NCBI GenBank assembly: GCA_020832135.1 | Contig: JAFIFG010000015.1 | Span: 62,001 to 126,000 of the forward strand | Source of the DNA: Clostridiaceae bacterium | GTDB lineage: Bacteria > Bacillota > Clostridia > Peptostreptococcales > Natronincolaceae | Direction of reading: 5' to 3' | DNA: 64,000 nt | Shown here: positions 28,893 to 41,498 of the stretch, piece after piece | Position numbering within the stretch: position 1 is the stretch's first letter | Layout of the letters: each line of letters begins with the position of its first letter | Notes under the pieces: model-generated | Seen by the model: only the letters and a program-made list of their open reading frames with translations | Told to the model about the DNA's origin: nothing | The model's database searches: none | Position numbers and translations under genes: made by a program

Positions 28893-31800
28893 TTATTCTG
28901 TTATTCTCTCTACTGTAATACCTGTATCGTGGTCATTTAGATTTTGTTTTTCTAATTCAGGATTCTGTACTCTTTCAATATTCACAGCTAAGGTTTCCTG
29001 CATAATGTATTCTTTATGAATATTTACTGCATTGGCTATTTCATCGTCACCATCAAAATAAACTTTAATATTGTCTGTTACTTGGAAATCTTTATTCTTT
29101 CTCATCTGTTGTACTTTAGATATAAACTCACGAGCAAATCCCTCATTGATTAGTTCCTCTGTTAATGTAGCATCTAAAATAACAAATAAGTTGTTTTCCA
29201 TTTCTACCGTAAAGCCTTCCTTCGCAGAAATAGTAATCATAACATCTTCCTTTGTTAATTCAAGAGTTTCTCCTTCTAGCTCTACAGTGATACTATTACC
29301 TGCCTCTAAACTAGGAACCACCTCTGATGCATCCAACTGTGCCAATGCCTTTCCTAATAGCTTTATTTTACTTCCTAACTTAGGTCCAGCTACCTTGAAG
29401 TTTGGTTTTAAATTGAAGTTCATAAACTCCTTTAAATCCTTTTCAAATTGAACTTCTTTAACATTTAATTCCTCTTGGATCAAAGGCATTAAATCAGAAA
29501 TCAATGCTTCGTATTTTCCGTCTATCAGGATTTTTTGTAGTGGTTGACGTACCTTTATTTTGGTTTCAGCCCTAGCAGCTCTACCTAATTTTACAAGATC
29601 TCTAACTAAGTCCATTTTTTCTTCTACAGCAGAATCTATCAATTTATCATCAGCTTCAGGATAGTCAGCTAAATGAACAGATACTTCTTCTGTTAGCTTT
29701 TGATACATTTCATCTGCTAGGAATGGTGCAAATGGTGCTACTAATTTAGAAACTCCTATTAATATTTCATAGGTTGTGTTATACACAGCTTTTTTATCAT
29801 TTGTTAATTCAGTAGCCCAGAAACGTCTTCTTGCTCTTCTTATATACCAGTTAGATAAATCTTCATTTACAAACTCCTGAATTTTTCTAACGGCTCTTGT
29901 TAAATCATAGCTTGTCATATCATTTTTAACTTCTTTAATTAAGTTATTGTATTTAGAAAGTATCCATCTGTCTAGTTCAGGTCGCTCATTGTAATTTATG
30001 AAGAAATCCTTCGGATTAATTTCATCTGTATTAGCATACATCGTAAAGAAGCTATATACATTTTGTATAGTAGTAAAGAACTTACTTTGTACTTCTTTTA
30101 ATCCCTCAATGTCAAATTTAGTAGGTGTCCATGCTGGCGATACGTGTAGCAGGTACCATCTTAAGGCATCAGCACCATATTGATCAAATAATTCAAATGG
30201 ATTTACTGTATTTCCTTTTGATTTAGACATTTTTTGTCCGTTTTTATCTAGAATTAAGTCATTTACAAGGACATTTTTATAAGGAGATACTCCTTTGACA
30301 AAGGTGGAAATAGCCAGTAGTGAATAGAACCATCCTCTAGTTTGATCAATTCCTTCACAGATAAAATCTGCTGGGAATAGCTTATCAAATCCTTCTTTAT
30401 TTTCAAAAGGATAATGATGCTGAGCAAATGGCATAGCACCACTGTCAAACCAACAGTCAATAACCTCTGTTACCCTTGTCATACTGCCTTCACATTTATC
30501 ACATTTTAAGTGTATATCATCTACATGTGGTCTATGCAGCTCTATAGATTCATCAATGTCTTCTATAGCTTTTTCTATTAATTCTTTTCTAGACCCTACA
30601 GATGTAGTATGTCCACATTCACAACGCCATATATTTAAAGGTGTTCCCCAGTATCTATTTCTTGATAGGGCCCAATCATTTAAGTTTTCTAACCAGTTTC
30701 CAAAGCGTTTTTCCCCTACATAATCTGGATACCAATTAACAGAGTTGTTATTTGCGATTAATTGATCCTTAAGCTTGGTCATTTCAATATACCAGCTTGG
30801 TTTTCCATAATACAATAACTCTGTTGAACAACGCCAGCAATGGGGATAATTATGATCAATTTTTTCCTTTTTGAAAAGCTTTTCTTCTCCATGAAGCCAT
30901 TTAATGATATCTACGTCACACTCCATAACAAAACGACCTTCCCATGGAGTTCCAATGTATTTTCCTGCTTCATCCACCGGCTGTAATACTGGTAAGTCAT
31001 ATCTTCTTCCTACTTGGTAGTCATCCTCACCAAAGGCAGGTGCAATATGAACAATACCTGTACCGTCTTCTGTTGTTACATAATCAGCAAGAGTAACGAA
31101 AAAAGCTTTTTTATCTGGTGTAACAAATGGCATCAATTGCTCATATTCTAGATGTTCTAGATCAGTACCTTTTACCTTTTCTAATACCTGATACTCACCT
31201 TCTATAACTTTGCCTGCCAATGCTTCCGCTACATAGTAGACTTTTCCTTCATAGCTTACTTTAAGGTAGGTGACTTCTGGGTGTACTGCTAATGCTACGT
31301 TTGCAGCTAATGTCCATGGTGTTGTTGTCCATACTAGGAAGTATTCGTCTACATCTTTTCTTTTCATAGGAACAATTACTGTATTAGACTTTATTTCTTT
31401 ATACCCCTGAGATACCTCATGGGAGGCTAGTCCCGTTCCACAACGTGGACAATAAGGTAAAATCTTATGTCCTTCATAAATCATATTCTCTTTAAAGAAT
31501 TTGTCTAGAATCCACCATACAGATTCGATATAATTATTGTCTAATGTAATATAGGGATTATCTAAATCAATAGAGTAACCCATTCTTTCTGTCATTTCTC
31601 TCCATTGTTTTTCATAGGTAAATACAGATTCGCGACATTTTTCATTAAAATCTGCAAGACCATAGTTTTCAATTTCCGTTTTACTAGATAGATTTAATTG
31701 CTTCTCCACTTCAATTTCCACCGGTAGACCATGGGTATCCCAACCAGCCTTTCTCTTTACCTGATAGCCCAACATGGTGTGGTATCTACATACGGAGTCC

Positions 31801-31997
31801 TTTAGAGTTCTAGAAATAACATGATGAATTCCCGGTCTTCCATTGGCGGTAGGTGGTCCTTCAAAGAATACAAAGGATTCCTTACCTTCACGATTTTCAA
31901 TGCTTTTTTCAAGAATATTATTCTTATTCCACAGATCAGTTACGGCCTGTTCTCTATCGGCTACAGGCCCATTAGATAGTGCTTTAAATCCCTTCAT
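28893..31997 (-). CDS. ileS: Isoleucyl-tRNA synthetase, eukaryote-like (IleS2) type
   Basis: 1034 residues. The class I signatures are a HIGH-type PTANGRPGIHH near residue 51 and KMSKSKGN near 600. CP1 editing domain and anticodon-binding region are present, and the C-terminal extension is the long form of the eukaryote-like clade rather than the zinc-finger tail of the usual Firmicute enzyme. Members of this clade (IleS2, MupA relatives) tend to be insensitive to mupirocin; that is family knowledge and not tested here. The ATG follows AAAGAAAGGATATC. It is regulated by the T-box leader immediately upstream. Confidence 0.97.
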   Translation of the reverse strand: MKGFKALSNGPVADREQAVTDLWNKNNILEKSIENREGKESFVFFEGPPTANGRPGIHHVISRTLKDSVCRYHTMLGYQVKRKAGWDTHGLPVEIEVEKQLNLSSKTEIENYGLADFNEKCRESVFTYEKQWREMTERMGYSIDLDNPYITLDNNYIESVWWILDKFFKENMIYEGHKILPYCPRCGTGLASHEVSQGYKEIKSNTVIVPMKRKDVDEYFLVWTTTPWTLAANVALAVHPEVTYLKVSYEGKVYYVAEALAGKVIEGEYQVLEKVKGTDLEHLEYEQLMPFVTPDKKAFFVTLADYVTTEDGTGIVHIAPAFGEDDYQVGRRYDLPVLQPVDEAGKYIGTPWEGRFVMECDVDIIKWLHGEEKLFKKEKIDHNYPHCWRCSTELLYYGKPSWYIEMTKLKDQLIANNNSVNWYPDYVGEKRFGNWLENLNDWALSRNRYWGTPLNIWRCECGHTTSVGSRKELIEKAIEDIDESIELHRPHVDDIHLKCDKCEGSMTRVTEVIDCWFDSGAMPFAQHHYPFENKEGFDKLFPADFICEGIDQTRGWFYSLLAISTFVKGVSPYKNVLVNDLILDKNGQKMSKSKGNTVNPFELFDQYGADALRWYLLHVSPAWTPTKFDIEGLKEVQSKFFTTIQNVYSFFTMYANTDEINPKDFFINYNERPELDRWILSKYNNLIKEVKNDMTSYDLTRAVRKIQEFVNEDLSNWYIRRARRRFWATELTNDKKAVYNTTYEILIGVSKLVAPFAPFLADEMYQKLTEEVSVHLADYPEADDKLIDSAVEEKMDLVRDLVKLGRAARAETKIKVRQPLQKILIDGKYEALISDLMPLIQEELNVKEVQFEKDLKEFMNFNLKPNFKVAGPKLGSKIKLLGKALAQLDASEVVPSLEAGNSITVELEGETLELTKEDVMITISAKEGFTVEMENNLFVILDATLTEELINEGFAREFISKVQQMRKNKDFQVTDNIKVYFDGDDEIANAVNIHKEYIMQETLAVNIERVQNPELEKQNLNDHDTGITVERITE

Positions 31998-32064: not shown

Positions 32065-32322
32065 TATAAAAAGCCCCTAAAAGTAGGGACGAATTCACCG
32101 CGGTACCACCCTGGTTACAAGGCAAATAATAGCCTCATCACTCACACATGTTAACGTATGTCTACGAAAGCCCCTACTGTTTCTTCAGGACCTTTGCTCA
32201 AAGGTGATCTTCATAAAAAGTGCCCATAATAATCTTTCAGCCAAGGATTATCTCTCTGTAACCGCTTGCTTTCTATTACTGTCCTCATCATTGCATTTGT
32301 GGAAAAAAATATAAAACTGTCA
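32065..32322 (-). ncRNA. T-box leader riboswitch of ileS (isoleucine, AUC specifier)
   Basis: On the complement the T-box signature AGGGTGGTACCGCGGTG is at 32096-32112, followed by a terminator hairpin (GTCCCTACTTTTAGGGGC then TTTTT, about 32068-32090). Stem I is closed by AGGAC near 32283 and GTCCT near 32190. Upstream of its 3' strand lies GAAGATCACC, where ATC fits an isoleucine specifier followed by A. Uncharged tRNA-Ile would stabilise the antiterminator and allow ileS transcription. Confidence 0.93.
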
Positions 32323-33966: not shown

Positions 33967-35052
33967 TTATTCAATCAATCCCCTAGCTACATTAAGGATA
34001 AAGTCTTGAATATTTGTAACAAGTGTTTTCACTTCTAATGTTCCTCTATCGAATAATTTGTTAACAGAAAACTCCTGTATATCTATAGAATATATATATA
34101 CTGGTCTAACAACACCATTTTTTACTGTATAGGATGGTGTCATATTTCCTGAAGCAATGGTATGAAGTACAGTTGATAAACATATCAGCATGGTTGCTTT
34201 TCTAGTGTGCTTTCTCATAGCATCTTGGGCTTCATAGACATTATCATAGACATTTGGTAATGCATATCGATCCCTTATACTTCCAGCTAGTACTACTGGA
34301 ACATCTTTTTCTACACAGGCTTTTAATATGCCATCTTTCACTTTTCCTGAATGAATAAGTTCATCTATAGAACCCGCTCTTCTGGCTTCATTGATGGTAG
34401 CCATATAATTATAGTGAGCATTTCCACGGGACTCAAATACCTCCTGCCCTGAAACTGTTTTAAACATTGCCTTCTCTAAATCATAGGTGCCAAAGGTATT
34501 ACCAGAAAAAATAGCCTGTACATAGCCATGCTCTACTAGAGAGGCAAATGCAGCCCTTGACCCATCATCTAATGCAATGGATGGTCCTAAAACCCAGACA
34601 ATCTTCCCATCATTCTCCTTCTCATGCTTCATAATCTCATATAATTCATCATAATCTTTAGAATAGGCAGTCTCTCTTGATCTACCACTTCTAAAGGCAA
34701 AGGTATCGGTAACCACCTCTTCAGTAAGAAATCCTTCTGTATACATATATATACCTTCACTACCGTCTTCTGTTCTCCCTACCACCACTTTATCGCCAAC
34801 TTTTAGATTTCTAAATTCTAAAATATCTATACCATCATCTGGTGTAACAACAGCAACGGTGTCCATACGGCTTTCATTAGCTATTACCCATTTCCCTTTA
34901 ATTTTAAAATACTCAGGATAAATGGAAAGAGCATGATAATTTCTAGGGGCAACTCCTTCTTTAACTACTTCTTCTATTTTACAATCTGGTGCATTCACAA
35001 AAAAATCCTGTGTGAAATCTGGTGGTCTAAACTTTGGTAATTCAAAACTCAT
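33967..35052 (-). CDS. Ornithine cyclodeaminase-like protein, TIGR00300 (LOR/SDH) family, copy 2
   Basis: 361 residues from the ATG at 35052, which follows AGGAGGAGATTTTAAA; an upstream in-frame ATG at 35166 has no ribosome site. It contains the family's N-terminal pattern (YFKIKGKWV, then KVGDKVVVG) and the C-terminal NAD-binding region (WVLGPSIALDDGSRAA; HYNYMATINEARRAGSIDEL; VLAGSIRD; LSTVLHTIASGN). Archaeal members cyclise ornithine to proline with release of ammonia. Compared with the consensus I remember (SIRDDGPLP), this copy reads SIRDRYALP, while it keeps the later DRG motif. It is 70 bases downstream of copy 1, and a terminator follows. Product assignment is by family; catalysis is not proven. 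Confidence 0.78.
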   Translation of the reverse strand: MSFELPKFRPPDFTQDFFVNAPDCKIEEVVKEGVAPRNYHALSIYPEYFKIKGKWVIANESRMDTVAVVTPDDGIDILEFRNLKVGDKVVVGRTEDGSEGIYMYTEGFLTEEVVTDTFAFRSGRSRETAYSKDYDELYEIMKHEKENDGKIVWVLGPSIALDDGSRAAFASLVEHGYVQAIFSGNTFGTYDLEKAMFKTVSGQEVFESRGNAHYNYMATINEARRAGSIDELIHSGKVKDGILKACVEKDVPVVLAGSIRDRYALPNVYDNVYEAQDAMRKHTRKATMLICLSTVLHTIASGNMTPSYTVKNGVVRPVYIYSIDIQEFSVNKLFDRGTLEVKTLVTNIQDFILNVARGLIE

Positions 35053-35122
35053 TTTAAAATCTCCTCCTGATAATAGCTTCCAAATAACATTAGTACTTTT
35101 CCTCATTGGTTTAAAAGATATA

Positions 35123-36196
35123 TTAACAAAGGTTTTTTTGAAGATTAACCACAAAGTCCTGTACATTAGTAAGGATTGTTTTAACGCCTACATATTCTCT
35201 AGCAACTGCTACTTGATTCACTGCATATTCAGCAATGTCTACAGCATAACAATATACTGGCCTTACTTCTCCCTCTATCATTCTATAGGATGATGCTAAG
35301 TTTGCAGTTGCTACTGAGTGCAGAACCGTAGCAAGACAAATAACAACTGTTGCTTTGTTGGTTTCTTCTTTCATAGCATCTAGTCCACAAGATACATTAT
35401 GATAAACCGAAGGAAGTGGTCCATCATCCCTTATAGAACCAACAAGAACTATAGGGATACTCTTTTCTATGCAGGTTTTCATAAATCCATCTTTTATATT
35501 TCCTTCATCAATTAGTTCCTCTATAGAGCCAGCTCTTCTAGCCTCATTTAGTAGATCCAAATGGTTATAATGTCCCATAGGAACAGATTCTTGGGTATAT
35601 ATATTTTGACCTAAAGATGTCCCTAACAGTCCACCTTCGAGATCATGGGTTGCCATAGCATTCCCTGCCAGCAGACCATCTACATACCCTTTTTCAGTAA
35701 GCTCTGATAAAGCAGCTCGTGTATCATGATCAAAAACCACAGCCGGACCTAATACCCACACAATATATCCATTATTTTCTTTCTCATGTTCTAGTAATGC
35801 ATATAGTTCCTCATAATCCCTTGAAAAGGACGATTCTACATACCTTCCTACATCTACGCTAGGTAAATTATCAAATCCAGTAGTATGCTTATATATCCCT
35901 TCAGTTCCATCTTTTTCTATTCCTAAAATAACTTTATCGCCAACCTTTAGATTTCTAAATTCCACAATTTCCACAGTATTATTATCCCGAACAACACCAG
36001 GGCATTCTATTGCACCTTGGTTTGGAAGAACCCATTTTCCATTAATTTTAAAGTATTCAGGTGATGCAGAACTCATGAAGAAACCTTTGGGAGCCACGCC
36101 ATCTTTTTTCACTTCCCCCATTTTAGCATCAGGTGCATTCACAAAACTAGCTTTTGTGAAATCTGGTGGAGTAAATTTAGGTAATTGAAAACTCAT
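35123..36196 (-). CDS. Ornithine cyclodeaminase-like protein, TIGR00300 (LOR/SDH) family, copy 1
   Basis: 357 residues, ATG after AAAAAGGAGGAAACTTTAA. Same fold and order as copy 2: N-terminal YFKINGKWVLPN, NAD-region WVLGPAVVFDHDTRAALSEL, GNAMATHDLEGGLLGTSLG, HYNHLDLLNEARRAGSIEEL, LVGSIRDDGPLP and LATVLHSVATAN. It keeps DDGPLP, which copy 2 has lost, but lacks the DRG motif that copy 2 keeps, so the two could form a heteromer with shared active sites. It is divergent from larC, a maturation gene for the nickel-pincer nucleotide. As I recall, database naming of this family also refers to that cofactor. Likely role: ornithine to proline, feeding the proline reductase. Confidence 0.78.
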   Translation of the reverse strand: MSFQLPKFTPPDFTKASFVNAPDAKMGEVKKDGVAPKGFFMSSASPEYFKINGKWVLPNQGAIECPGVVRDNNTVEIVEFRNLKVGDKVILGIEKDGTEGIYKHTTGFDNLPSVDVGRYVESSFSRDYEELYALLEHEKENNGYIVWVLGPAVVFDHDTRAALSELTEKGYVDGLLAGNAMATHDLEGGLLGTSLGQNIYTQESVPMGHYNHLDLLNEARRAGSIEELIDEGNIKDGFMKTCIEKSIPIVLVGSIRDDGPLPSVYHNVSCGLDAMKEETNKATVVICLATVLHSVATANLASSYRMIEGEVRPVYCYAVDIAEYAVNQVAVAREYVGVKTILTNVQDFVVNLQKNLC

Positions 36197-36551
36197 TTAA
36201 AGTTTCCTCCTTTTTTGTAGTTTATTTAACAAATGCTATAAGCCTTATTATACAACACAATTCGTCATTTTTTAATACCGCTACATAAAAATGTAATTTT
36301 CATAAGATTTTTATTTTTATACTCCCTCTTTTGATGCAAAATTAAACCACCATAAATTTTTATGTTAAACCAAGTTTATCCTCTAAAGTAATTGCATCCT
36401 ACATAGTAAAAAGCTTTTGTCTTTAAGGAGATATTTTTTATATTTTACAACTATAGTATAATGAAAGAATATACTACTATAGTTTTTTATATAATAAGGC
36501 AAACTATTTAGATTAAATCATTTTAATTTCAAAATGCAGGAGGTTTACATT
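36197..36551. promoter_or_regulatory. Divergent control region between the cyclodeaminase-like pair and larC
   Basis: 355 bases without a gene. On the complement a TATAAT (36247-36252) precedes copy 1. On the plus strand a TATAAT (36457-36462) precedes larC and overlaps an inverted repeat, ACTATAGTA (36450-36458) and TACTATAGT (36475-36483). Its position over the -10 suggests an operator. No riboswitch consensus was recognised. Confidence 0.5.
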
Positions 36552-37760
36552 ATGAAGATACTTTATTACGATTGCTTTTCAGGCATCAGTGGTGATATGA
36601 ATTTAGGAGCCATGCTTGATTTAGGTATTGAAGAAGCTTATTTAAGGCAGGAGCTAGAAAAGCTTCCTTTACATAAAGAGTATGTATTGGAGGTAACGAG
36701 GGATGAAAGAAAAGGTATTACCGGCACAAAGGTAACGGTAAATTTATTACAGTGTCATGAACATAACCACCATCACGAAGGAGAAGGTCACCGCCACAGA
36801 AATTTAGAAGATATCGAAAATATTATTGAGACCAGTAGCCTTAGCTCCTCTGTCAAGAATTTGAGCTTAGCAATTTTCATGGAGGTAGCTAAAGCTGAAG
36901 CAAAAATCCACGGTAAAACCATCAATGAAGTCCACTTCCATGAAGTAGGTGCAACGGACTCCATTGTTGATATTGTAGGAGCTGCCATATGCTTTGATAG
37001 TCTTAAAGTGGACAAGGTTATCTTCTCACCCTTAGCTGTTGGTGGAGGATTTGTTCATTGTGCTCATGGAAAGTTCCCTGTCCCTGCCCCTGCTACAACA
37101 GAAATCTTAAAGGGAATTCCTATTACTACCGGTGGAGTTGAAAAGGAACTAACTACTCCTACGGGAGCTGCTATTGCTAAAGTATTAGGAGACGAATTTT
37201 CTTCTGAAAAGAATTTCTCTATTACAAAAATTGGCTATGGGATAGGCCATCGAGATAATGTAATTCCCAATGTATTGAGGGTTTTTTTAGCAGAGTTCGA
37301 AACTCAAACTCAAGAAACAGCTAAAATGATAGAATGTAATATCGATGATATGAATCCAGAAATCTATGAGTATGTAATGCAAAAGCTTTTAGATCAAGGG
37401 GCTATGGACGTTTATATGACACCTATTATCATGAAAAAAAACCGCCCCAGTGTAAAACTTAGTGCCCTTTGTTGTCATGCTTTAGCTGAAACCATGACTT
37501 CTATCCTGCTTAAAGAAACTACTACTTTAGGGGTTAGAAGTTATGACGTACATAAAGATATGCTAGATAGAAAGATTATTATCGTCAACACAGAATATGG
37601 TGATGTAAAGGTAAAACTAGGGATCTATAATGGGGAGGTTATTAAATTCAAACCTGAATATGAGGATTGTAGAAAAATTGCTGAAGCCTACAATATACCT
37701 TTGTATAAATTAACAGATATAGTTCAAAGCTATATGAGTTCTTCCCTTTGTCTAAAATAA
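36552..37760 (+). CDS. larC: Nickel-pincer cofactor biosynthesis protein LarC (nickel insertase)
   Basis: 402 residues from the ATG at 36552; GCAGGAGGTTTACATT precedes it, so an upstream in-frame ATG at 36534 lies before the ribosome site and is not used. The N-terminus MKILYYDCFSGISGDMNLGA is the LarC signature. A histidine-rich segment HEHNHHHEGEGHRHR at about 66-80 can bind nickel. Later motifs are NEVHFHEVGATDSIVDI and ECNIDDMNPEIYEYVM. LarC inserts Ni into pyridinium-3,5-bisthiocarboxylic acid mononucleotide in the cytoplasm. LarB is 3 kb downstream; LarE and LarA are not in the window. In some species LarC needs a frameshift, but here it is a single frame. Confidence 0.95.
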   Translation: MKILYYDCFSGISGDMNLGAMLDLGIEEAYLRQELEKLPLHKEYVLEVTRDERKGITGTKVTVNLLQCHEHNHHHEGEGHRHRNLEDIENIIETSSLSSSVKNLSLAIFMEVAKAEAKIHGKTINEVHFHEVGATDSIVDIVGAAICFDSLKVDKVIFSPLAVGGGFVHCAHGKFPVPAPATTEILKGIPITTGGVEKELTTPTGAAIAKVLGDEFSSEKNFSITKIGYGIGHRDNVIPNVLRVFLAEFETQTQETAKMIECNIDDMNPEIYEYVMQKLLDQGAMDVYMTPIIMKKNRPSVKLSALCCHALAETMTSILLKETTTLGVRSYDVHKDMLDRKIIIVNTEYGDVKVKLGIYNGEVIKFKPEYEDCRKIAEAYNIPLYKLTDIVQSYMSSSLCLK

Positions 37761-37859: not shown

Positions 37860-38732
37860 TTAAGTTCTTTTCAGGACGGACCAACAAACCATACCAAGTC
37901 TCATTTTAGTGGTTGCTGTAAACAATCCATTTTCTATTTTACTTTCTACATAATTATGAATGTTTTTCTTAACAGAAGGTGTTATATCTGTATATAGCCA
38001 AAAAGAATCACATAAGGATGCTACAGCTTCCTCTGGCTCCTTCTTTCTCACCATGGTTATATCTATATATTCCATCTTAGGTGAATAACCTAACTGATAT
38101 AGGATATAAAAAGGATAAATAACATCGTTGGCCTGCTTACTTTCTAAATTTTTTCCTAATAATAGTTTTTCCAACTCTTTTCTAGTACTATCCTCTACTT
38201 TACCAGAGGTAGATATTAAACAGCAGTATTTTCTAGAGGCTGCATTCATTTTTATTAGTGTCTTCAGGTTTCTTATTCCTGGGTTTAAAGATGAAAAAGC
38301 CACATCAAAGCTTTTGTATAACTTTTCTTTTCTTAATTTAACCTCCTGCCAAGGTGCTATAAGTGTTTGTATATTGCTTAATTTTTTTTCACTTGCCTTT
38401 CCTTCTAATATACCACACATTTCTGAGGAACTATCTAAAGCTATTACTGACTTTACTACCTCTGCCATAGGAATAGTATAGGCCCCCGTACCACTACCAA
38501 TGTCTAGCACTTCTGTATTTTTTGTTAAAATTTTGTGCTGTAGAAAATAATCCATCACCTTCTGGACCCGATCTTCTTCTTGACCCATCATATTACTATC
38601 ATATTTATCGGCTATTTTATCCCAATAGGCTTGTACTTCTTTTTCACTACGGATTCTCATTTTGAAATATGGAGCAGATGTCAATGCATCTGCCCAAGCT
38701 TTGTTTGCATGTAATATTTCTTTTTTTATCAT
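37860..38732 (-). CDS. Class I SAM-dependent methyltransferase linked to the nickel-binding lipoprotein
   Basis: 290 residues. SAM-binding motif I is EVLDIGSGTGAYTIPMA (about residues 78-94), followed by VIALDSSSEMCGIL. The N-terminus (KEVQAYWDKIADKYDS) is typical of UbiE-like methyltransferases. The substrate is unknown. The start overlaps the stop of the upstream binding-protein gene by four bases (ATGA type), which suggests a joint function, for instance modification of a metal chelator or of a nickel-handling molecule. That is inference from the overlap and the flanking lar genes. Confidence 0.82.
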   Translation of the reverse strand: MIKKEILHANKAWADALTSAPYFKMRIRSEKEVQAYWDKIADKYDSNMMGQEEDRVQKVMDYFLQHKILTKNTEVLDIGSGTGAYTIPMAEVVKSVIALDSSSEMCGILEGKASEKKLSNIQTLIAPWQEVKLRKEKLYKSFDVAFSSLNPGIRNLKTLIKMNAASRKYCCLISTSGKVEDSTRKELEKLLLGKNLESKQANDVIYPFYILYQLGYSPKMEYIDITMVRKKEPEEAVASLCDSFWLYTDITPSVKKNIHNYVESKIENGLFTATTKMRLGMVCWSVLKRT

Positions 38733-40300
38733 TTTATTTCAACTCTGCCTAAATGAGGTTTGAAATTTGCGTCTAATTCAAAATTATGCACCTTGTTATT
38801 TACTGCGTATAAAGTAACATCATGGTAAATAGGCACTACTGGACCTTCCTTAGCGGCTACCTCCTGCAATTCTAAGTACATACTATGTCTTTTATCCTGA
38901 TCTCTTTCTCTTGCTGCCTTTGTAATCATGTCATCCACTTTAGGATTATTGTAGCCATAGCTTCTGCTTTTATTTGAATTACCTTCAGAAAACATATGGG
39001 TGCTAAAGAAAACATTAGGTTCCCCTGTCATTAAGGTAAAGGGACCAATGGTAATATCATACTCACCTGCTTCTAATCTTCTGTTCCACTCTCCTGCTTC
39101 TACCATTTCAATATCTATAATGAGATTTAATTCCTTCAACTGATGTTGCATAATTTCAGCTATGGCTTTATATGGCCATCTACTAGAAATACCTGAGTTT
39201 AATAATATCTTTACTTCAACTTCCCCGTCCCCAATAGATTTCTCAACTAAGTCCTTTGCCTTATCTATATCATATTTAGGTGCTACTTCTTTGTTTAACC
39301 ATTTTTCAGCTACTGGTGTAATAACACTTTTAGCTGGAATACCATACCCTTCTAATACGGTATCTACTAGCAATTGACGATCTAAGGCATGGCTAACAGC
39401 TAATAATAAGTTATTGTCTTTAAACAAATTGTTTTGATTAAAAAACAAGTAGTGGGTTGTTCCAACTAATTTTGTTTTTAGAGTTAGATTATCAGCTCCC
39501 TCTATAACACTTGCTTGTTCTGGCATAACCGCTCCTACATCAGATAAAGCATCTACCTCACCACTTTGTAAAGCTGCCAACCTTGTACTAGGATCAGCAA
39601 TAAAGGTGAAAACCACCTCTTCTAGCATTGGTGTTTCTCCCCAGTAATTTTCATTTTTAACTAGAATAATGGATTCATCTGTAATATATTCTTTGAATAC
39701 AAATGGACCAGTTCCTATGGGATTGATAATATCATCATTATCATCAAAAGAGGCTAAACTAAACATAGGACTCTCATGATAAGCCAACATTCTAGGAAAC
39801 TCTGGCATAGGTACAGCATGGGTAATAGCTACTGTATATTCATCCTTTGCTTCCATAGCTGTTATATCCCCATAAGCAAGTTTGGTATTTCCTTTTCTAG
39901 GATGATTTAGTAGTCTTTCTAAATTATATATTGCTACTTCTGCATTTAAAGGAGTTCCATCATGGAAGGTTACCCCTTGTCTCAATTGAAATGTCCATGT
40001 TTTACCATCATCAGATACACTCCAAGATTCTGACAGCTCAGGCATAGGCTCCAGCTGATCATTTAAGTAAGTTAAAGATTCCCATACATTGGTACTCCCA
40101 TGTAAACAGGTAGGATTAGCTGACCCTAGGTAAAAGTCTCTCCCTACACCTATAACTAATTTCTGTTCTAGCTCCTCAACAACAGCATTTTTCACTTCTG
40201 CTTCTTCTGCTGTTTCTTCTACTGGACTTTGTTGGCCTCCACAGGCCGTTAACAGCAATACTGTTACCATAAAAAATATAAAATAGCTTATCCTTCTCAT
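38729..40300 (-). CDS. Nickel/peptide-type ABC transporter substrate-binding lipoprotein (NikA-like)
   Basis: 523 residues from the ATG at 40300; two GTG codons upstream are in frame but the signal peptide begins neatly at MRRISYFIFF. The lipobox LTAC gives an acylated cysteine. The SBP_bac_5 fold shows in WTFQLRQGVTFHDGTPLNAEVA and VALPIYHDVTL-like C-terminal sequence. Such proteins bind nickel chelates, opines or peptides. Location between larC and larB makes nickel the best guess. No permease or ATPase genes are adjacent, so it must use a transporter encoded elsewhere. A structured leader with a terminator lies upstream. Confidence 0.85.
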   Translation of the reverse strand: MRRISYFIFFMVTVLLLTACGGQQSPVEETAEEAEVKNAVVEELEQKLVIGVGRDFYLGSANPTCLHGSTNVWESLTYLNDQLEPMPELSESWSVSDDGKTWTFQLRQGVTFHDGTPLNAEVAIYNLERLLNHPRKGNTKLAYGDITAMEAKDEYTVAITHAVPMPEFPRMLAYHESPMFSLASFDDNDDIINPIGTGPFVFKEYITDESIILVKNENYWGETPMLEEVVFTFIADPSTRLAALQSGEVDALSDVGAVMPEQASVIEGADNLTLKTKLVGTTHYLFFNQNNLFKDNNLLLAVSHALDRQLLVDTVLEGYGIPAKSVITPVAEKWLNKEVAPKYDIDKAKDLVEKSIGDGEVEVKILLNSGISSRWPYKAIAEIMQHQLKELNLIIDIEMVEAGEWNRRLEAGEYDITIGPFTLMTGEPNVFFSTHMFSEGNSNKSRSYGYNNPKVDDMITKAARERDQDKRHSMYLELQEVAAKEGPVVPIYHDVTLYAVNNKVHNFELDANFKPHLGRVEIK

Positions 40301-40420
40301 TACTTTCACCACTCCGTATCTTACATAGTATATTTAGGTTAGTAAAGGCAACCTATAATCCTTTAATGACTAAAAATCTTTACATCTACCTGTACTGTTA
40401 ACATACTTTTACTTCTTTAA

Positions 40421-40751: not shown

Positions 40752-41498
40752 ATGAAAGTTGAAAATATAAAACAACTGCTTGAAGATGTTAAAAATAATA
40801 AAATTCAAATAGAGGAAGCACTATCCACCTTAAAGGAACTACCTTATCAAGACTTAGGTTTTGCCAAGGTAGATCATCATAGGGAATTAAGACAGGGCTA
40901 TCCTGAAGTCATCTATTGTGAAGGAAAGACAGTAGAACATATCGTTGATATTGTAGGTGTTATGGTGGATAGAGGCAGTAATGTATTGGGAACTAGAGCA
41001 ACAAAAGAAATGTATGATGCTGTAAAGAAAAAACATCCTATAGCCATTTATAATGAGTTAGCAAGGACCATTACCCTTGTTCAACAGGAAATCAAATTAC
41101 AGGCAACTCATATAGCTGTCATAACAGGAGGAACTTCTGATATACCTGTAGCTGAAGAAGCTGCTATTACAGCTGAAATCCTAGGCAATAAGGTGGAACG
41201 AGTTTATGATGTGGGTGTAGCTGGTATCCATCGGTTGTTCTCTAAGCTAGACATCATTCGAGAGGCACAAGTGGTAGTAGCAGTAGCTGGTATGGAGGGA
41301 GCCTTGGGTAGTGTTATTGGAGGCTTAGTAGATAAGCCTGTCATTGCTGTCCCCACCAGTGTTGGTTATGGAGCTAATTTCGGAGGTTTAGCTGCACTAT
41401 TATCTATGTTAAATAGCTGTGCAAGCGGTACCGCTGTTGTAAATATTGATAATGGCTTTGGGGCTGGATATATGGCTAGTATGATTAATAAGTTATAA
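40752..41498 (+). CDS. larB: Nickel-pincer cofactor biosynthesis protein LarB
   Basis: 248 residues, PurE-like fold. Conserved segments are [58 protein letters not shown] and [19 protein letters not shown]. LarB carboxylates nicotinic acid adenine dinucleotide to pyridinium-3,5-biscarboxylic acid mononucleotide, the first step of the cofactor pathway. The ATG follows ACAGGAGGTTAGAAA. It is divergent from the NikA-like gene. LarE, the sulfur-transfer step, must be encoded elsewhere. Confidence 0.95.

Follow-up and report, generated by a model that had tools for sequence, protein, structure and literature searches.

Genes at the locus

The window, by which we mean the whole 64,000-nucleotide stretch of DNA that was analysed, comes from a Clostridiaceae bacterium and carries two related genes, A and B. 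They lie head to tail on the minus strand, A and then B, with 70 bases between them, and their products are 50% identical over the whole length. The start of B is best placed at 35052, just after AGGAGG, an assignment inferred from sequence alone; an alternative B reading frame starting at 35166 would encode 399 aa and would overlap the end of A. The genes and motifs referred to below are:

35123..36196, minus strand: gene A, 357 aa, NF052526 score 477.4 bits; the subunit in which the Rossmann-domain (cofactor-edge) half survives and the N-domain and DRG half is lost (column comparison, AF2 model)
33967..35052, minus strand: gene B, 361 aa, NF052526 score 526 bits; the subunit with the opposite pattern, N-domain and DRG half surviving and Rossmann cofactor-edge half lost (column comparison)
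36534..37760, plus strand: larC (nickel insertion, NPN cofactor synthesis), divergent from A; TIGR00299 229.4 bits (cut-off 90), NF052512 158.5 bits (cut-off 50)
40752..41498, plus strand: larB (NPN cofactor synthesis); NF033503 304.2 bits (cut-off 175)
35411..35437, minus strand: SIRDDGPLP, intact in A, residues 254-262; D, G and P 100% in A, 0-2% in B
34255..34281, minus strand: SIRDRYALP in B, residues 258-266, DGP lost (sequence and clade frequencies)
35642..35662, minus strand: NAMATHD in A, residues 179-185, with conserved His184; NTFGTYD in B; His 100% in A, 0% in B
35561..35575, minus strand: GHYNH in A, residues 208-212, with conserved His209 and His212; lost in most B; a low-pLDDT loop of the A model
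35318..35320, minus strand: His293 of A; 100% in A, 22% in B; the window's B retains His
35195..35203, minus strand: A-R-E replacing D-R-G in A, residues 332-334; D and G 0% in A, R 100%
34042..34059, minus strand: KLFDRG, intact in B, residues 332-337 (sequence and clade frequencies)
34861..34872, minus strand: SRMD, intact in B, residues 61-64, lost in A (clade frequencies)
34675..34701, minus strand: FAFRSGRSR loop, intact in B, residues 118-126; F118, F120 and R126 lost in A
34135..34149, minus strand: GNMTP, intact in B, residues 302-306; G and P lost in A (clade frequencies)

At the DRG site A reads VAREYV where its relatives have DRG, and B reads FDRGT. The window's B has AHYNY at the GHYNH position, so that the first His is kept. 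The second D of SIRDD is R in 39/40 B proteins, and the R126 position is V in 39/40 A proteins.

A search of the window with Rfam at gathering thresholds found no RNA for the A-B pair, promoter-like sites for the pair were no more frequent than in shuffles, and a terminator-like site was sought for it and not found. The sole Rfam match was a T-box leader, which sits upstream of an isoleucyl-tRNA synthetase-like ORF.

Family membership

Both proteins pass the cut-off (440 bits) of NF052526, 'putative NPN-dependent ornithine cyclodeaminase', but neither has the complete conserved set in one chain that is seen in the NF052526 singles, that is, the products of genes standing without an adjacent family member. 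The TIGR00300 cut-off of 410.8 bits was not reached (211.1 and 205.4 bits for the two proteins); on this profile of 407 positions the alignment begins at position 80 for B and 78 for A, and the N-terminal positions 1-77 are absent. PF21570, the Rossmann C-terminal domain of ArgZ-like proteins, was passed with 181.1 and 177.9 bits against a gathering threshold of 27. With PF21571, the ArgZ first-region model, B scored 25 bits, below the gathering threshold of 27, and A had no listed match. FTR_C (PF02741) was considered as the family and rejected, there being no match to it in the window's own genome. Among solved structures, 3c2q (Methanococcus maripaludis) and those of cyanobacterial ArgZ and AgrE gave significant sequence scores, and identity of A and B to the single-gene relatives is roughly 50-62%.

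The family is already known by name, and so are complementing paralogues as a kind. What is new is the paired form, a variant among such paralogues that is bacterial and reciprocal and whose intact form is extant. In the literature searched, which left out most subscription papers, no paper was found on a paired or heteromeric ornithine cyclodeaminase, nor one treating nickel-pincer nucleotide and ornithine cyclodeaminase together.

Single and paired forms across genomes

A single similarity scan against A was run on a collection of 84,980 genomes and the best 80 of 237 loci were kept, a sample that leans to pairs. Two adjacent family genes were present in 39 of these loci and one in 41; adding the window and locus L084 gave 40 pairs and 42 singles. 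After further surveys a non-redundant set was assembled of 92 singles, 55 A, 55 B and 23 TIGR00300-type proteins, leaving out loci L001-L003, single-locus proteins shorter than 320 aa, and loci repeating the last 250 residues of an earlier row. SxRDDGP and DRG are both present in every single (92/92) and every TIGR00300-type protein (23/23). The A clade has SxRDDGP without DRG (55/55), the B clade has DRG without SxRDDGP (55/55), and A lies upstream of B on the same strand in all 55 pairs. Chance or an alignment artefact was rejected as the source of this pattern, given complementary motifs in 55/55 non-redundant pairs read as sequence. The singles L204 and L205 were considered as exceptions and also rejected, as they read SIRDDGPLLP with the DGP intact.

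An adjacent pair was found in 66 genomes, each counted once; four of these were present under two handles and were merged by identical coordinates. NF052526 searches of whole genomes, with 66 pair genomes among them, found no genome having full-length A or B alone, relics and contig-end pieces being left unassigned. At single-gene loci, every sequence that was read was of the intact form and had both motifs. When 50 of the 80 locus genomes were searched whole, 11 had a single match; the other 39, the pair genomes, had exactly two matches and no third, intact copy.

The profile surveys of orders, families and phyla, unlike the similarity scan, carry no bias towards pairs. Where sequences were not read in these surveys, forms were called by adjacency and score, full-length singles scoring at least 544 bits and A and B at most 531. 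NF052526 matched 134/393 genomes in the window's order, 6 of them with an adjacent pair, and 42/398 in a phylum sample, where 7 were above the cut-off and the others were mostly weaker TIGR00300-type matches. The family of genome G056 had matches in 5/11 genomes, 4 with pairs, and that of G790 in 32/206, 13 with pairs. In the family of genome G811 43/130 matched: 39 genomes had exactly two genes, side by side, and the remaining 4 a lone low-scoring gene. One of these four is L129 by coordinates and has both motifs, and the other three were unread. The order around a Treponema record gave 4/390 matches, three pairs and a single. Pair-bearing taxa are Bacillota, two Spirochaetota records and one Synergistota record.

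Reciprocal loss of conserved residues

A column was taken as conserved if it reached at least 95% in the singles, which gave 107 columns, and as lost in a clade if it fell below 50% there. A has lost 32 of these columns and B 23, and none is lost in both, where 6.9 would be expected (hypergeometric p 8e-5, assuming independent columns). Stricter definitions of loss weaken the non-overlap (p 0.03 at <20% and 0.17 at <10%), as the counts drop, and with the looser column threshold of 90% one of 131 columns is lost in both. The partner is constrained where the other copy is not: B is at 95% or above in 27/32 columns lost by A, and A in 21/23 lost by B (rank tests, p 1.4e-4 and 9e-7). Per genome, A or B together supply a median of 98% (minimum 93%) of the 55 lost residues, whereas the median share is 47% for A and 58% for B alone. 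The window's genes supply 96% jointly, and 56% (A) and 73% (B) alone.

Of the conserved columns, 56 are also common to the TIGR00300-type relatives. Among them A has lost 11 and B 9 at the <20% level, with none in both (p 0.12). In B numbering the deep losses of A are M63, D64, F118, F120, Q276, R280, G302, P306, L333, D335 and G337, and those of B are A186, H190, L201, G212, H213, H216, D262, G263 and P264. Each deep residue lost by one copy is kept by its partner at 98-100% (11 by B, 9 by A). Losses fall in blocks along the chain (runs permutation p 6e-5), in the N-domain and C-terminal parts for A and in the mid-Rossmann region for B.

The first-pass annotation of the two genes had described copy 1 as keeping SIRDDGPLP and having lost DRG, and copy 2 as reading SIRDRYALP and keeping DRG. 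Both descriptions held, with the precision that in copy 1 D and G are lost and R is retained. These two motifs are only a small part of the pattern, as 55/107 conserved columns are lost in one copy or the other and none in both. Its proposed alignment of each clade, to see whether the two versions always occur as a pair, gave a positive answer in 55/55 read pairs, and genomes with only one version, which would have refuted it, were looked for and none was seen among the genomes found, 66 of them with the pair. Its remark that both copies are shorter than archaeal members of about 400 residues held against TIGR00300 (22/23 relatives of this type fetched are 396-464 aa long). The single-gene relatives have a median length of 364 aa, and the shortness of A and B is therefore unrelated to pairing.

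Phylogeny and selection

A quick tree was built from 76 rows (20/55 A, 20/55 B, 28/92 singles and 8/23 TIGR00300-type proteins as outgroup). A forms one clade (SH-aLRT 100) and B another (SH-aLRT 99), and both are nested among the singles via branches of 89-93, unstarred. A and B are not sisters in the free tree, where A joins singles L016 and L116 (SH-aLRT 82, unstarred); constraining them together was not rejected (p-AU 0.40). One duplication of a self-sufficient gene, most simply in tandem, is the simplest history that can be inferred, and it is unproven. Distances among A and among B proteins in 55 genomes are strongly correlated (Mantel r 0.89, 0/2000 permutations as high), as expected if both genes move together. 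The dN/dS values were 0.015-0.22 in 12 comparisons per gene, with dS saturated in one. Both A and B are under purifying selection.

Structure models

The AF2 model of A has a pLDDT of 88.3, and that of a single-gene relative, L039 from Clostridium carboxidivorans, 84.4. Both models matched, in this order, 3c2q, ArgZ/AgrE and deoxyhypusine synthases. The A model matched 3c2q with Z 35.4 over 308 residues and the single-gene model with Z 36.2 over 325 residues. Deoxyhypusine synthases followed with Z 14.5-17.7 over about 195-225 residues at 8-13% identity, the Trypanosoma brucei structure 6dft being first or tied first among them (Z 17.7 with the single-gene model); by sequence profile no deoxyhypusine synthase was found with E up to 10.

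In the secondary structure of the single-gene model most residues lost by B lie just past the C-terminal ends of strands 150-153, 179-183, 254-257 and 289-293, and the remaining ones in segment 199-217 and within strand 254-257. The C-terminal strand ends are the usual cofactor edge of such a sheet. Of the Rossmann residues lost by A, 9/13 are found in the second half of helices 273-284, 296-305 and 328-336 or no more than two residues after, the exceptions being Y274, Q277, R317 and F329. Outside the Rossmann part, the losses of A fall in loops of the N-domain and in loop 111-129. From the topology of alternating strands and helices, without a measured distance, it can be inferred that within a single chain the two sets are placed near opposite edges. 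Confidence in the single-gene model is lowest at 111-130, 331-340 and 201-210, the FAFRSGRSR loop being lowest of all. In the A model, which is without the motifs of 111-130 and 331-340, it is lowest at 198-208, a loop that A retains. Such loops would suit ordering by a partner or a cofactor; this is no more than a possibility, as low confidence has other causes too.

Neighbouring genes, substrate and cofactor

Within the available flanks of the 40 pair loci, ornithine carbamoyltransferase was present in 16, carbamate kinase in 11, an AgcS-type amino acid carrier in 13, a CD0519/CD1768-family membrane protein in 12 and a ClpB-like gene in 21. Nine gene types were sought, and of these the 42 single loci yielded just a ClpB and a carbamoyltransferase, one each. 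The counts cannot be taken as independent, as flank lengths differ and loci are related. A separate ORF-overlap filter masked the family gene in 16/82 loci, and the neighbour counts were made without that filter. Enzymes like this carbamoyltransferase and carbamate kinase are able to convert citrulline, with ornithine and ATP as products, and conversion of such ornithine to proline would be a natural next step. The pair in the window lacks ornithine carbamoyltransferase, carbamate kinase and the other pair-locus neighbours, and has larC and larB nearby. Downstream of the pair larE, larB and larC are present in 4/40 loci, three from Anaerococcus and one from Criibacterium.

LarB and LarA were surveyed in 80 genomes chosen from a longer list (44 with a pair, 12 with a single, 24 with no match). 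LarB was above the cut-off in 36/44 pair, 10/12 single and 13/24 no-match genomes. Fifteen of the 36 LarB-positive pair genomes had no LarA-type match above the cut-off, and seven no-match genomes had LarB with neither LarA nor the cyclodeaminase-type family. LarB was absent in 8/44 pair genomes, and these argue against a strict NPN dependence unless the assemblies are incomplete. Three LarA-type genes are present in the genome of the window, whose lar genes therefore need not serve the A-B pair. The neighbours of some pairs, a minority, support ornithine as substrate and NPN as cofactor, the activity itself being inferred. NPN dependence of the pair, so named by NCBI as 'putative', is plausible by inference and remains a possibility that is not settled.

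A probable composite-site heteromer

We consider it likely, with a probability of roughly 0.8, that A and B form an obligate heteromer with one composite working site, an ornithine cyclodeaminase-type enzyme; the physical heteromer is an inference. What has been shown is that the losses are reciprocal and that A and B co-occur and are under purifying selection, together with the gene context and the folds of A and of one single-gene relative. In the proposed mechanism a self-sufficient single gene would have been duplicated, most simply once and in tandem. The ancestral site would have been formed between two subunits, one contributing its Rossmann cofactor edge (GP, NxxxxH, GHxxH, SIRDDGP and H293) and the other, opposite it, its DRG side, N-domain and FxF loop. 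After duplication A would have kept the Rossmann edge set and lost the N-domain, FxF and DRG set, and B the reverse. If the site is shared between subunits, an A-B dimer would be left by the reciprocal loss with a single working site: A's Rossmann edge with B's cap would make one complete site and the other would be doubly dead, as in trypanosome deoxyhypusine synthase. The reaction would probably be ornithine to proline and ammonia, with NPN as cofactor by the NCBIfam name. The trans geometry, the single duplication, the substrate and the use of NPN are all inferred, and the first rests on secondary-structure topology and the analogy to deoxyhypusine synthase, with no complex prediction or coordinates behind it.

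The first-pass annotation had offered two readings. The obligate heteromer with composite active sites is supported and favoured by the comparative data, its physical association being inferred; two different substrates are disfavoured, as the deep residues lost by one copy are kept by the other at 98-100%.

Three other explanations could be put forward. One copy could be catalytic and the other a regulatory pseudoenzyme acting at a distance, without a shared site. Active and dead paralogue pairs are known, for example the prozyme of trypanosome S-adenosylmethionine decarboxylase, for which structures with the prozyme partner exist (PMC5201418), and A still has the DGP loop and conserved His residues at positions 184, 209, 212 and 293. 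However, a purely regulatory B need not keep exactly the 11 deep residues that A has lost, yet B holds all of them at 98-100%, and we regard this explanation as unlikely. Still less probable is that A and B are separate homomeric enzymes whose substrates or half-reactions have become different. Each clade has fixed residues of its own (the R of 39/40 B and the V of 39/40 A), as after specialisation, and the two are not sisters in the free tree. Against this, neither copy was found alone (66 pair genomes), order and adjacency are fixed, and the loss patterns are complementary, each copy being without residues kept in the singles.

The last of the three, and in our ranking the least probable, is that the site lies within one chain and the pair is non-catalytic. 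It would agree with each copy being without residues conserved in the singles. A site built in one chain would leave both copies dead, which is hard to square with the observed selection: the retained halves are near fully conserved and dN/dS is low. Moreover, the pair stands in for the single gene, as the 39 pair genomes searched whole have no third, intact copy.

The composite-site heteromer can be given a bolder reading, for which we would claim no better than an equal chance. NPN would be held between reciprocally dead paralogues, the pair would repeat independently, within the same broad fold, what happened when trypanosome deoxyhypusine synthase was split, the intact single type would persist in related bacteria, and the pair would cross phyla only as a unit.

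In the pair, nature provides a clean example of complementary degeneration following duplication, in which the self-sufficient and the split forms are both extant and dozens of positions are informative, and with it the origin of obligate heteromers without gain of function becomes directly testable. It also points, in a family that carries NPN dependence in its name and lies outside LarA, to an active site between subunits. For anaerobes such as Anaerococcus and Peptoniphilus it means that a two-subunit ornithine enzyme can be proposed.

Comparison with known systems

LarA, the established NPN-dependent enzyme, would share with A and B the cofactor made by LarB, LarC and LarE; no sequence or fold comparison between them stands behind this likeness. 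About 15% of genomes analysed in a published survey have larB, larE and larC without larA, and non-LarA NPN-binding proteins are expected (PMC11796402); the word cyclodeaminase is absent from that paper.

The TIGR00300 enzymes and the C-terminal domain of cyanobacterial ArgZ/AgrE (3c2q, 6juy, 6lrf-6lrh) are relatives of the pair in sequence and fold, and the title of PDB entry 6lrg is of AgrE with ornithine and NAD+. Unlike A and B, TIGR00300 proteins have about 78 extra N-terminal positions and are encoded by one gene with both motifs intact. The single-gene NF052526 form is like A and B in length and in the solved structures matched (by the A model), but it holds both conserved halves in one chain, whereas A and B have one half each.

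A close parallel to the proposed architecture is found in deoxyhypusine synthase, the active sites of which lie between subunits (PMC7432094). Of the sites in the T. brucei heterodimer one is functional and another a remnant (PMC7432094, PMC7581365), and pairing raises the activity of the trypanosomatid enzyme 3000-fold (PMC3663545). The trypanosomatid subunits, DHSc and DHSp, are paralogues, and their heterodimer combines a working with a remnant site; their Rossmann-type fold resembles that of the modelled proteins (Z 17-18). Co-occurrence is also as in complementing paralogue pairs of this type, since 66/66 genomes with either A or B have both. However, DHSc and DHSp show about 10% identity, catalyse another reaction and are eukaryotic, and the split in A and B is inferred to have arisen independently. 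According to a published abstract one subunit of the trypanosomatid enzyme is inactive and the other impaired, whereas in A and B the loss is reciprocal over 55 columns.

Genes flanking the pair and its relatives

A gene for a ClpB-like protein was found at 21 of the 40 pair loci (adjacent genes A and B), as against 1 of the 42 single loci, where one gene carries both motifs. It lies directly upstream of gene A at loci L024, L026, L027, L028, L031, L032, L034, L036, L037, L050, L059 and L063. The sole example scored, from locus L013, reached 1157.6 against the ClpB cut-off of 1232.1, and since it falls below, the ClpB-like protein could represent a specialised paralogue and might act as a dedicated chaperone, although this rests on the score of that one example.

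Identities to gene A of the window were taken over the best 80 of 237 loci by similarity to that gene. Among L004-L012 they were 78-82% for a group of Clostridium species of which several are cold-adapted, judged by their names, and 74% for Oceanirhabdus, compared with at most 63% for the remaining kept loci. This could point to a transfer between the lineages.

Some loci were atypical. The six pairs of genomes G872-G877 have a gene A scoring just 319-339 bits against NCBIfam NF052526, and this gene A appears to be evolving fast; LarB, tested in three of these genomes, was absent from G872 and G874 and present in G877. Genome G299 has two high-scoring copies on separate contigs (610 and 586 bits), typed as single without reading their sequences. 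Low-scoring, shorter relatives with open frames of 334-348 amino acids were found at L129 (genome G418) and in G892, G897 and G898; only that of L129 was read as sequence, and both motifs are present in it.

Two features lie downstream of the pair:

32082-32300, minus strand: T-box leader (RF00230), 130.9 bits
32450-32546, minus strand: gene B relic, 97 bp, 94 of 97 bases as in the gene B 3' end

The leader is upstream of ORF 28893-31997, which, judged by its sequence, is isoleucyl-tRNA synthetase-like. The relic is situated 1.4 kb downstream of gene B, past a CheW/CheY-like gene, and is bracketed by GGGGCCAGGC and GTCTGACCCC, which by appearance resemble imperfect inverted ends of a small mobile element.

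Nickel-pincer nucleotide and nickel

Seven genomes (G839-G844 and G846) have LarB above its cut-off with neither a LarA-type nor an NF052526 match, and hint at another, unknown user of the nickel-pincer nucleotide cofactor. The window itself has between larC and larB:

37860-40312, minus strand: methyltransferase-like gene and substrate-binding protein gene

A role of these genes in nickel uptake may be considered; the substrate-binding protein is kin to NikA-type nickel binders, with scores below their cut-offs.
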